64,000 nt of DNA from positions 124,001 through 188,000 of the forward strand of contig NGFI01000002.1 of the NCBI GenBank assembly GCA_002215645.1, given 5' to 3'. The translations under genes were made by a program, and so were the position numbers. Positions within the stretch are counted from its first letter, which is position 1. Each line of letters starts with the position of its first letter. The notes under the pieces are model-generated. The model was not told the DNA's origin and did not search any database. It saw only the letters and a list, made by a program, of their open reading frames with translations. The stretch comes from Gemmatimonadetes bacterium 2013_60CM_65_52 (GTDB taxonomy: Bacteria; Gemmatimonadota; Gemmatimonadetes; Gemmatimonadales; Gemmatimonadaceae). Positions 42,726 through 47,850 of this stretch are shown here, piece after piece.

Positions 42726-42756
42726 TCCAACTTCTCGAGACTCTCGCTATTCAAAA

Positions 42757-42801
42757 GAGCGGGCGACCAGACTCGAACCGGCGACGTCCAGCTTGGGAAG
42801 C
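42757..42801 (-). repeat. displaced 3' part of tRNA-Gly (att site)
   Basis: 45 bp, identical at 44 positions to 47777-47821, the 3' part of the intact tRNA-Gly(CCC), same orientation. It covers the T-arm, variable region, anticodon 3' side and acceptor 3' strand. Similarity stops sharply after GGGAAGC. Interpreted as the outer attachment site. Confidence 0.85.
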
Positions 42802-43605: not shown

Positions 43606-45138
43606 TCAGTGGTCAGAGTGCGGCAGCTCCGCAGCATCGCCAAGTCCTTCCGCCAGCTCGCAGTGAGGGCATCCGGCGACACGGTCGCGTGGGAGTTCAT
43701 CCAAAGTGCCTCCAACGAGGTCGTAGTACACCTCGGAGACCGGCCGCTTGGAGAGTCCATACAGAAGGTCCTGCAACCGCAGTTCCACCAGCGCGGCAGT
43801 CATTGCGTTCATTGGCATGACGCTGGGCGCGTGCTCGGGGCCCAAGTGCTCGACGTAGCCACGGGCACGGTCCGCCGCCACCTCGGCCTCAGTGCGATAT
43901 GCCAACGACAGTTTCCGGGAGGTGATGTGCCCCGAACACCACAAGCAGGGTCCGCCCGGCACCAGAACACTCACGCGGGCGCCACCGGCTTCCACCGTCG
44001 CCGCATCCGCCGTCACGTCGTCCTCGGCAGTGGAGCGAATGACATTCGCCCCGTCAAGCACTGGAATGAAATGAGCATAGGCGACGGCGTTCACGAAATT
44101 GCGGACTCGCACGTCGTCAACGGCCAGGCTGATCACGTCTGCGTCGAGGAGACGAGCGAGCTCATCCGAATGCCGTACGTCCGCCTTCCGCCACCAAACC
44201 CATACCTCGCGCACGAGTGCGACGCGCCCGATCATCGCTGCAAGCGTCTCCGCCTTGCCGGCGCGTCGCTGGGCGTCAGAAAACGTGAAGCTGCCGGATC
44301 GGTTGATGTTTACGGTCTTAATGACGTCGGGATCCCAGAGGCTCATCCGGCCGAAGCCCATCCGCGCCGAGTCCTCGGCGGTGATCGAGCCGACTCCGCC
44401 CGTGCCGACGAAGGCAACGTGCACTTCAGCAAGGAGCCGTTGGCCGTCCCGTCCGAAGACCCGAACGGAGCGATCGGCCCAAGATGGGGGCTGATACGCT
44501 TCGGGCCCGGCTTCGGCCGTCCGCCGGAACTCGAAATGGGATCTACTAAGGGTCCGGTATCGCGTCACCACGTGCATCGTCACGCCGGCGTCTCTGGTCC
44601 AGCGCAGTTCACGCGCGCGCAACTGGTCTTCGCTCACGACGATCGAGACCAGCGGCGCTGATCCCTTGAGGAACCCTTCACCGAAGAGGAAAGCGGCCAG
44701 CTCGCGATCAGCGTTGTCATCGTCGGCGCTCCACACGGGGTTGCCGCGACCAGGATGAGTGTGCAGAACCGCGATCCCGGTTTCGCCCGAGCGTCCGGAA
44801 AGGTCATCAATTACCCGGTTCCAGTAGCGAGAGGTTATCGTCACGACATAACCGCGATGGTATGAGAGATCGCCATCCTGGGGCGGTAGCGAATCCTGAA
44901 CGATCAGCGAGCGCCGCGACGCGCCGGTGCTCACGCGGCACAAAGCGATGACCGCGCCCTCTCGCGGAGCGGCCGAAAGCGCCAGGCCCCAAACGGCCTC
45001 TCGAACCCCACCCGTCCAGGCAATCTCGATGCGGGCGTTGAGCGTCAGGCCTTCCCGGCGGGTCATGGTCTTCACGAGACCGAGCACGGCTCCCATGGCG
45101 GCGTCGATCGACGCGCGAAGGCGCGTTGTCACTGTCAC
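43606..45138 (-). CDS. JAB peptidase / ThiF-type E1 fusion
   Basis: 510 aa, GTG start, third in the operon. N-terminal Prok-JAB metalloprotease domain: zinc motif H126-T-H128-P with S137 and D140 (JAMM). C-terminal E1/ThiF adenylating domain: GTGGVG at 245-250, D269/D271, NINR at 277-280, K295. Two CxxC pairs (C398/C401, C490/C493) form the structural zinc site. The only other Cys is C67 in the JAB part, so a separate E1 thioester Cys is not apparent. Probably activates the adjacent ubiquitin-like protein and trims or removes it. JAB-E1 fusions are known from predicted bacterial ubiquitin-like operons. Confidence 0.88.
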   Translation of the reverse strand: MTVTTRLRASIDAAMGAVLGLVKTMTRREGLTLNARIEIAWTGGVREAVWGLALSAAPREGAVIALCRVSTGASRRSLIVQDSLPPQDGDLSYHRGYVVTITSRYWNRVIDDLSGRSGETGIAVLHTHPGRGNPVWSADDDNADRELAAFLFGEGFLKGSAPLVSIVVSEDQLRARELRWTRDAGVTMHVVTRYRTLSRSHFEFRRTAEAGPEAYQPPSWADRSVRVFGRDGQRLLAEVHVAFVGTGGVGSITAEDSARMGFGRMSLWDPDVIKTVNINRSGSFTFSDAQRRAGKAETLAAMIGRVALVREVWVWWRKADVRHSDELARLLDADVISLAVDDVRVRNFVNAVAYAHFIPVLDGANVIRSTAEDDVTADAATVEAGGARVSVLVPGGPCLWCSGHITSRKLSLAYRTEAEVAADRARGYVEHLGPEHAPSVMPMNAMTAALVELRLQDLLYGLSKRPVSEVYYDLVGGTLDELPRDRVAGCPHCELAEGLGDAAELPHSDH

Positions 45139-45141
45139 GGC

Positions 45142-45543
45142 CTAGTCCCTCCGGAGGAAGCGCCCTTCAATGTTCGCGACGTGCGTTTCGAGTGTGTCTT
45201 TCGCCGGGTCCCAGGGAGCGCCCTTCGGGGCCCACGAAAACTTGAGCCACCGACGGCCAAGCAGGTCGGCCTCGCTCGTGGATCTCGGCTTTTCGGAGCC
45301 ACCAGCGAGTTTCAGGTCCAGCGGGAGGACGTAGAAGCCGGTCGGATCCGGCTCAGCATCGGGGTAACCGACTGCGACGATGAAGGCGAGCGCGGCGAGC
45401 TCGCCTGGGACGAATGCGTCGGTGGCGGGCGGCGTGAACGGCTCAATCACCACCACCACCATCTCGCCGACGTCTACGCAGCGAACTGCGCTGCCCGGAC
45501 GCGTGAGCTTTGCCGCATCGTCCCAGACGCGCTTCCGGCTCAT
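45142..45543 (-). CDS. Prok-E2_E-like ubiquitin-conjugating fold protein
   Basis: 133 aa. E2/RWD-like pattern: GEMVVVVIEPF, YPDAEPDPTGFYVLP (60-74), then LGRRWLKFSW (95-104), W111, DTLETHVANIEGRFL. This matches the family E bacterial E2s (YPD-PD-FYV-P, then W-x-FS-x). The only Cys is C22, outside the expected active-site loop, and the FSRH-type His is replaced by FSW. It may work through other residues or as a scaffold. Starts by ATGA overlap with the Ubl gene; the E1 gene follows 3 nt after its stop. Confidence 0.75.
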   Translation of the reverse strand: MSRKRVWDDAAKLTRPGSAVRCVDVGEMVVVVIEPFTPPATDAFVPGELAALAFIVAVGYPDAEPDPTGFYVLPLDLKLAGGSEKPRSTSEADLLGRRWLKFSWAPKGAPWDPAKDTLETHVANIEGRFLRRD

Positions 45544-45854
45544 GAGCGGCCCGCTCCTGTCGGCGACGAGTAATCGGTTCCCCGCAGAGTCGCGCGGAAA
45601 TGGTCACCGGGGTTCACCCGCACGACTTCATCCGGGCCGATCCGCTTGTCGGCGTGGCCGCCCTTAACGGTGAACAGCTCATACCGCTCGGACGTCAGCT
45701 CGACGCGGCGGAGAATCTCCGAACCCGTAACATCCTCGCCACGAGCGTTCACGTGGCCTTGGCGGTCGTTGACGTGAAACACGCCCTGACCGACCGCCTC
45801 ACCGTCGTGCCCGCCGTGATCCCGACCATGCTGCTCCTTCGCTGCTGTCGCCAT
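45540..45854 (-). CDS. ubiquitin-like protein (single multiubiquitin-type domain)
   Basis: 104 aa from ATG 45854, with AAGGGGAG upstream; the open frame runs to 45926, but that start would fall in the operator. A His/Gly-rich N-terminal tail (HGRDHGGHDGE) precedes a Multi_ubiq-type beta-grasp domain at about 24-92: VFHVNDRQGHVNARGEDVTG, SEILRRVELTSERYELFTVK, EVVRVNPGDHFRATLRG. The tail after it is TDYSSPTGAGRS, with no C-terminal Gly. Maturation by a peptidase (the JAB domain) is a possible step. First gene of the operon. Confidence 0.8.
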   Translation of the reverse strand: MATAAKEQHGRDHGGHDGEAVGQGVFHVNDRQGHVNARGEDVTGSEILRRVELTSERYELFTVKGGHADKRIGPDEVVRVNPGDHFRATLRGTDYSSPTGAGRS

Positions 45855-45909: not shown

Positions 45910-45987
45910 TATAGCGTCGAGTACACTCGCTCGGCAAAGAAAATCGCCCTGAAGCGGGCTTATGGACAACTATAGCGCGGAGTATAC
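45910..45987. promoter_or_regulatory. paired 17-bp sites between ubl and xre genes
   Basis: TATAGCGTCGAGTACAC (45910-45926) and TATAGCGCGGAGTATAC (45971-45987) match at 14 of 17 bases, 61 bp apart, in the same orientation. The first overlaps a leftward -10 (TATACA; -35 TTGCCG, 18-nt spacer) for the ubl operon. The second lies 11 bp before the XRE start. Likely XRE repressor sites controlling both directions. Confidence 0.6.
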
Positions 45988-45997
45988 CCACTACGCA

Positions 45998-46357
45998 ATG
46001 GCCAAGACAACCCTTTTGGGAAGACGCCTGAAGGAGATCAGAGACAAGCGGGATTGGAGCCAGTCAGAGCTCGAGAAAAGGTCCGGGATCCCGGCCGTCA
46101 TGATCAGCCAGTTCGAAACCGGCGTCCGCAAGAACCCATCGGCGGCGACGCTCGTCAAACTGGCGAACGCCCTGTCGATTTCGATGGATTACCTGCTAGG
46201 TCGAACGGACGTGCCGACTCCAGTCGGAGGGCCTGTCGCCGTGCTTCTGCGGACACTGGAGGGCGCCTCGGGTACCACTTTCGACGCAGTCACTGCCGTC
46301 GGCAAACACCTCACGGATCAGGAGCGGGCACGTGGCGAGAAGCCGAAGGACGGGTGA
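45998..46357 (+). CDS. XRE-family HTH regulator
   Basis: 119 aa from ATG 45998 (the open frame reaches 45962 across the operator). HTH: RRLKEIRDKRDWSQSELEKR, VMISQFETGVRKNPSAATLV and KLANALSISMDYLLGRTD. A short C-terminal tail follows. Four nt before an ImmA/IrrE-type gene; such pairs act as repressor plus derepressing protease (known from ICEBs1 and phage systems). Probable controller of the divergent ubiquitin-like operon. Confidence 0.9.
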   Translation: MAKTTLLGRRLKEIRDKRDWSQSELEKRSGIPAVMISQFETGVRKNPSAATLVKLANALSISMDYLLGRTDVPTPVGGPVAVLLRTLEGASGTTFDAVTAVGKHLTDQERARGEKPKDG

Positions 46358-46361
46358 CTAG

Positions 46362-47303
46362 ATGACCCTCACCCGCGAGGCGCTGGACCGTGCCGCGCGC
46401 CAGAAAGCGCGCGAGGTGTTGGCCGACGCGGGGATCGCTAACGGTCCCGTGTCGCCATTCAAGGTCGCGGCCACTGTCGGTTTTCCGCTTCCCATTGACG
46501 ACGTCACGATGCCGCCAGCAGCCTTCGGCGCCCTGTACAAGGAAGGCAATTCATTTCGGATCCTGGTGTCGAACACGTGCCCGAACGAAGGCTTCCGGCG
46601 CTTCACGATCTGCCACGAACTCGGCCATTTGTTCCTGGACGGCCATCTCGACGAGCTGTTCGAAAGCGGCGATCGACACTTCTCCGAAGCCGGCCAGTTC
46701 CGGGGTCAGCGCAAGCCTTGGTTTGAGACTCAAGCAGACACCTTCGCGGCTGAACTCCTCGTGCCGACGGCGTTCGCCGACCCGGTACTGCGCGCCGCCG
46801 GACATGGTTTGGCCGCCGTCCGCGCCATCGAGGCCAAGTTCGAGACGTCGCTGAGCTGTGCGGCAGTTCGCTACGCGGAGCTGGCCGGCGATTCCGTGGC
46901 AGTCATCCTCTCGCGAAACGGCACGGTGGAATGGGCGTGCGCGTCCGGGCAAATGCGTGAGCACTGGTGGGGGAAGCGCGGTCTAAAGGGCGAAAACGCG
47001 CCGCGAGGAAGTGTGACGGCATACCTTGCGCGCGATTCGAAGGCCGTAGCGGCGGGCGCAGAACGGAGCACCGAGGGGTGGCTGAACGATTGGTTCGACG
47101 GCGCCCCGGTCATATCGGTGGAAGAAGAGGCACTTGGCCTTGGATCCTATGATCGCGTCCTGACGGTGCTTCATTGCGGAAGTATTCCAACGCCGGATCA
47201 GGAACGCATCCGTCAGGATCGAGACCGGCGTGGCCCGACTGACTGGCGTGAAGCAATGCGGCCCTACTCGCTCGACCGGTACGAAGATTTGGTGGACGAC
47301 TAG
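46362..47303 (+). CDS. ImmA/IrrE-family metallopeptidase
   Basis: 313 aa. Zinc motif H85-E-L-G-H89 in FTICHELGHLFLDGH, then the family's third-ligand region and TFAAELLVPTAFADPV. The C-terminal half (about 150 residues) is an extension without a recognised domain and may sense a signal. In characterised pairs the protease cleaves the partner repressor when triggered. Here it would relieve XRE repression of the islet operon; this is inferred. Confidence 0.88.
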   Translation: MTLTREALDRAARQKAREVLADAGIANGPVSPFKVAATVGFPLPIDDVTMPPAAFGALYKEGNSFRILVSNTCPNEGFRRFTICHELGHLFLDGHLDELFESGDRHFSEAGQFRGQRKPWFETQADTFAAELLVPTAFADPVLRAAGHGLAAVRAIEAKFETSLSCAAVRYAELAGDSVAVILSRNGTVEWACASGQMREHWWGKRGLKGENAPRGSVTAYLARDSKAVAAGAERSTEGWLNDWFDGAPVISVEEEALGLGSYDRVLTVLHCGSIPTPDQERIRQDRDRRGPTDWREAMRPYSLDRYEDLVDD

Positions 47304-47741: not shown

Positions 47742-47777
47742 CCGTTGCAAATCCCTCGAAATACTCAAGTTATGGAG

Positions 47778-47850
<73 letters not shown>

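Follow-up and report, generated by a model that had tools for sequence, protein, structure and literature searches.

The window, by which we mean the whole stretch of 64,000 nucleotides that was analysed, carries on its minus strand three genes that overlap or almost abut: Ubl, E2 and JAB-E1, all three with intact frames. The ATG of the Ubl gene is preceded by AAGGGGAG, a Shine-Dalgarno-like stretch. The operon lies in a 5.0-kb island bounded by 46-bp direct repeats (45 positions identical) of the 3' part of tRNA-Gly(CCC), which further holds an HTH/ImmA gene pair and a fragment of a DDE transposase. The features are as follows:

42756-42801, no strand assigned: direct repeat, 3' part of tRNA-Gly(CCC), left island end (45/46 identical to 47776-47821)
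43606-45138, minus strand: JAB-E1 fusion (BubCD-like), GTG start, 510 aa; Pfam ThiF (PF00899) and Prok-JAB (PF14464) above their cut-offs
43660-43671, minus strand: putative E1 zinc pair C490/C493 (Cys in 36/53 and 22/53 E1s), aligned with the 'CPAC' of a MoeB-like protein
43855-43857, minus strand: E1 Tyr428 (TAC) in 'RGYVEHL', proposed E1 catalytic residue
43936-43947, minus strand: putative E1 zinc pair C398/C401 (Cys in 41/53 E1s at either position), aligned with a MoeB-like CxxC
44719-44961, minus strand: JAMM metalloprotease motif E60...H126xH128...S137xxD140, 96-100% conserved over 53 E1s
45142-45543, minus strand: E2-like protein of Prok-E2 family E (BubB-like), 133 aa; PF14462 above cut-off
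45235-45237, minus strand: E2 Ser103 (TCG), proposed from conservation and spacing to W-x-P as the acyl-accepting nucleophile that replaces the E2 Cys
45478-45480, minus strand: E2 Cys22, unconserved and by its column non-catalytic
45540-45854, minus strand: Ubl (BubA-like), a single Multi_ubiq beta-grasp domain, 104 aa from the ATG
45962-46357, plus strand: Cro/CI-type HTH regulator (HTH_3, PF01381), divergent from the operon
46362-47303, plus strand: ImmA/IrrE metallopeptidase (Peptidase_M78, PF06114), probable partner of the HTH repressor
47776-47821, no strand assigned: matching repeat inside tRNA-Gly(CCC) 47777-47850 (45/46 identical to 42756-42801)

We are nearly certain that this operon is a new and divergent member of the Bub or '6e polyUbl' conjugation pathways: it combines a JAB-fused E1 homologous to BubCD, a family-E E2 of the Cys-less type homologous to BubB, and a Ubl of the Multi_ubiq family. 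The closest solved structures are Citrobacter BubCD (JAB-E1) and BubB (E2). Against Citrobacter BubCD the JAB-E1 gives 2.1e-17 in a single-sequence phmmer search and 5.3e-148 with the family profile, while the E2 family profile reaches BubB at 8.3e-40. The best PDB match of the E2 AlphaFold model is again BubB (9eae_C; VIA Z 9.9, rmsd 3.4 over 120 residues), the next E2 and UEV folds scoring about 6. The Ubl stays below the Pfam cut-off for Multi_ubiq (PF14452; 17.1 bits against 24.5); an iterated Ubl profile finds it with an E-value of 7.8e-18, the window Ubl being one of its three seeds, and it aligns with the other operon Ubls. With Citrobacter Bub (PDB 9ea4, 9ea5, 9ea8, 9eae, 9eav) the window shares the three components, the JAB-fused E1, the family-E E2, and the invariant E2 Ser and E1 Tyr. 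The Citrobacter and Enterobacter form, however, fuses several Ubl domains to its E2, is without the CxxC zinc pairs, and is accompanied by a gene for DUF6527, the metal-binding fourth protein. In the window the Ubl is a single domain, the E2 is encoded separately, the E1 has two CxxC pairs, and the 600 bases downstream of the operon contain no DUF6527 frame. DUF6527 is also unannotated in some relatives and is not required for membership; many relatives likewise have a single-domain Ubl, and the tandem (polyUbl) arrangement is not a defining feature of these pathways.

The operon class is not new. Row 6e of Iyer, Burroughs and Aravind (2006; PMC1779556) lists a polyUbl, a Cys-less E2/RWD-like domain that was presumed inactive, a JAB-E1 fusion and a metal-binding protein, and includes a solo-Ubl case; the window shares with these operons the Ubl, the Cys-less E2/RWD-like domain and the JAB fused to E1. 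Since a Cys-less E2 was recorded there, the missing E2 cysteine is a known trait of the family. A search of that text found tyrosine unmentioned, and a conserved serine unmentioned outside a JAB legend. Other bacterial systems share the Ubl/E1/E2/JAB conjugation logic, namely Bil (BilABCD) and CBASS Cap2/Cap3. A Bil pathway is distinguished by an E2 with a catalytic cysteine (Cys138 in BilB; PMC11354881), whereas the window E2 has C22 alone; nor do the window E1 and E2 have the catalytic cysteines of a canonical thioester cascade. The PADLOC models for E1-E2 fusions match the window E1 weakly, and neither PADLOC nor NCBIfam names the window E2 or Ubl.

The translations contain five cysteines in the JAB-E1 (67, 398, 401, 490, 493), one in the E2 (C22) and none in the Ubl. 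The first-pass annotation had counted those of E1 and E2 exactly so, and had seen no obvious catalytic cysteine in either protein; this is borne out over 53 homologues of each, among which no candidate for a conserved catalytic cysteine is left. Few cysteines in proteins of such size are not by themselves surprising. The telling point is that, apart from the zinc pairs and E1 columns 333 and 339, a widely conserved cysteine is absent across the 53 homologues of each protein. Judged from these alignments, the lack of catalytic cysteines is a trait of the whole Bub family and no peculiarity of the window. Columns 333 and 339 hold Cys in 34 and 44 E1s, and the window has it at neither; C67, in the JAB half, is a minority column (Cys in 20/53 E1s) and not conserved. 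The four CxxC cysteines of the E1 would bind zinc by analogy with MoeB/ThiF, with which the window E1 shares the adenylation fold and the CxxC pairs, differing in a Tyr for the Cys in the loop, in the fused JAB, and in a partner Multi_ubiq Ubl that comes with an E2.

The E2s were collected beside JAB-E1 genes in Gemmatimonadota genomes and on plasmids of proteobacteria, actinobacteria, cyanobacteria, Bacteroidota, Planctomycetota, Abditibacteriota and haloarchaea, giving 53 distinct E2 domains, 26 of which hold no cysteine at all. The column of S103 is the best conserved of the alignment (0.96), followed by P61 (0.94) and W111 (0.89): it holds Ser in 51/53 distinct E2s and in 27/29 clusters at 50% identity. 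The two exceptions are a haloarchaeal E2 with 'RWSH' outside the aligned column and a broken frame. The serine is encoded by TCN codons in 39 cases and by AGY codons in 12, and Cys is never seen; the use of both codon types without a single Cys would point to selection for Ser itself. The usual form of the motif is 'RWSRH', and that of the window is 'KFSW'; the R and H flanking the Ser are missing in the window clade ('KFSWAPK').

S103 sits eight residues before W111-x-P113, as C85 of human UBE2D2 does before W93-x-P95, and is likely the positional equivalent of the E2 cysteine. The Ser-to-W spacing varies among relatives, and the loop from 'YP' to 'W-x-P' is about 18 residues longer in the window E2 than in UBE2D2. 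Profile-profile alignment with four human E2s (the sequence of UBE2D2 verified against the PDB) anchored the YP, the W-x-P weakly, and the active-site loop not at all, so that the equivalence stands on spacing and invariance rather than on superposition. The E2 AlphaFold model is middling (pLDDT 63.6), the alignments used for folding being shallow, and a three-row E2 alignment was discarded because it misaligned the FSW motif. The invariant Ser could be structural instead. The first-pass annotation had taken 'YPD...FSW' as an active-site region far from C22; the E2 residue that matters lies within this region, S103 being the S of FSW.

On the E1 side the residue that draws attention is Y428, which is Tyr in 51/53 E1s; in the remaining two a Tyr follows a few residues later. 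In an hhalign comparison with a MoeB-like protein of the same genome (E-value 1.9e-18), the Cys loop of the latter ('NCAEAG') falls at the Y428 loop, the two being adjacent rather than aligned residue for residue. In PDB entry 9eav, which holds BubCD with BubA and BubB, BubCD carries the JAMM mutation D104A and a Tyr-to-Phe change at the position matching Y428 (construct residue 372); this suggests that the depositors changed the Tyr to stabilise the E1-E2-Ubl complex. The adenylation residues G245, G250, D269, D271, N277, R280, K295 and D341 are 96-100% conserved in the 53 E1s and are kept in the window. The AlphaFold model of the JAB-E1, made from a two-row alignment, has a pLDDT of 30.7, too low to place Y428 relative to ATP. 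A divergent clade of E1s (loci L034, L036, L039, L041-L043, L045, L046, L050 and L058) has a 'NENVF'-like motif where most have 'P(A/S)V', and the Ser of the accompanying E2s is written in AGY codons; this group may form a subfamily of its own.

The window Ubl ends in ...RGTDYSSPTG|AGRS. In many homologous tails, too, a Gly stands a few residues before the end (NPG|RA, TEG|ARS, FG|RR); one stops exactly at ANFG, and others differ. The Citrobacter BubA construct stops at ...DVNNG, where the natural protein runs straight on into BubB. From these homologous tails and constructs, the window Ubl is likely trimmed to expose a Gly.

The explanation that we hold to be probable is an intact Ubl conjugation operon of the Bub type in which an oxyester relay, from an E1 Tyr to an E2 Ser, replaces the usual pair of cysteines; it draws on residue conservation, the chemistry being our reading of it. 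The JAB domain would trim the Ubl tail, and the E1 domain, with its conserved adenylation residues, would adenylate the exposed C-terminal Gly. The acyl group would then travel over hydroxyls rather than thiols: E1 Tyr428 would participate either as a nucleophile (acyl-Tyr) or as an acid/base helper, and E2 Ser103 would take the Ubl as an oxyester before its transfer to a target. Across the Bub family, Ser and Tyr probably stand in for the catalytic cysteines. A paper on BubCD reportedly describes oxyester transfer; this is a lead and is not used as evidence here. A bolder version, on which we are almost evenly divided and lean slightly against, is a full Ubl cascade free of thiols, via acyl-Tyr on E1 and acyl-Ser on E2, in which the window would work with an even simpler active site and perhaps pass the Ubl to another acceptor; its divergent clade has neither the Arg/His flanking the Ser nor the tandem Ubl nor DUF6527. 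The textbook account of ubiquitin-type transfer is a relay of thioesters, and the 2006 classification put a dead E2 in this operon class; a near-invariant Ser and Tyr in the E2s and E1s of many bacterial groups suggest a working oxyester relay. The observation is ordinary for the family and more informative than was first supposed: the family lacks a catalytic cysteine yet has conserved nucleophile candidates, S103 and Y428.

The strongest competitor, which we regard as possible but the lesser choice, dispenses with a covalent E1 intermediate: E2 Ser103 would attack the Ubl-adenylate directly in the E1 site, with Tyr428 as acid/base or as positioner of the tail. A covalent link between MoaD and MoeB has never been reported (PMC1779556), and E1, E2 and Ubl were deposited as one complex (9eav), both of which fit direct transfer; the Tyr, however, is as strictly conserved as the Ser and was altered in 9eav, and neither fact separates a nucleophile from a helper. 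That the E2 is a dead, RWD/UEV-like scaffold that binds the Ubl and leaves the substrate to react with the adenylate or acyl-Tyr on the E1 is unlikely. It agrees with the name of inactive E2/RWD-like domain given in 2006 (PMC1779556) and with the VIA ranking, where the UEV domain of TSG101 (Z 6.4) stands level with active E2s in the next group of matches, but it gives no obvious reason for a Ser, written in both TCN and AGY codons, to be the best conserved residue. The first-pass annotation had proposed adenylation only, or the use of Ser or Lys. Its Ser is upheld by the near-invariant S103, whereas neither Lys nor adenylation only is favoured, the E2 Ser and the E1 Tyr being conserved across very divergent members.

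Decay of the operon into an inactive remnant is very improbable. The transposase fragment downstream and the missing DUF6527 gene would speak for it; but the three genes are closely packed with unbroken frames, no JAMM or adenylation residue has been lost, and a relative with the same gene order also lacks DUF6527. The remaining proposal of the first-pass annotation, that C22 might be a relocated catalytic cysteine, is less probable still; in its favour is that C22 is the sole Cys of the window E2. Aligned with the family-E E2s, its column holds Cys in 1/53 sequences, that of the window, and in the AlphaFold model of the E2 it falls in the first strand. The nearest relative (locus L069/L032, a Gemmatimonadaceae MAG; 57% E1 and 52% E2 identity) has a Cys-free E2 with T at this column, and keeps both KFSW/S103 and Y428. 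A relocated nucleophile is refuted by these alignments, and C22 would have no catalytic role. Since C22 is the only stray cysteine and the E2 of the nearest relative is Cys-free, the pair of window and L069 offers a clean test system.

Scans of genome and viral collections for relatives gave one close relative and fragments. A second, distantly related Bub operon is present in the same genome (contig C7, ca. 85.5-87.7 kb; L052 3533-5726), with a Cys-free E2 carrying RWSRH and an E1 without zinc pairs. A Cro/CI HTH gene, an ImmA/IrrE gene, or both are recurrent and mostly divergent neighbours of the operons, in the window (45962-47303) and at L066, L068, L069, L092, L100, L101, L103 and L104, and probably control their induction. 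No integrase was recognised inside the 5.0-kb island, and none of the relatives searched had an empty insertion site. Other genomes of the family (G195, G012, G143 and G134) contain clustered pieces of the same tRNA-Gly end, a sequence pattern that suggests a shared insertion site. A search of phage records for a related E2 gave no match. A Bub operon also occurs on a contig of a viral collection (IMGVR_UViG_3300038696_000376; L071 3616-4778), where the JAB-E1 frame is cut short next to a gene for a site-specific recombinase.
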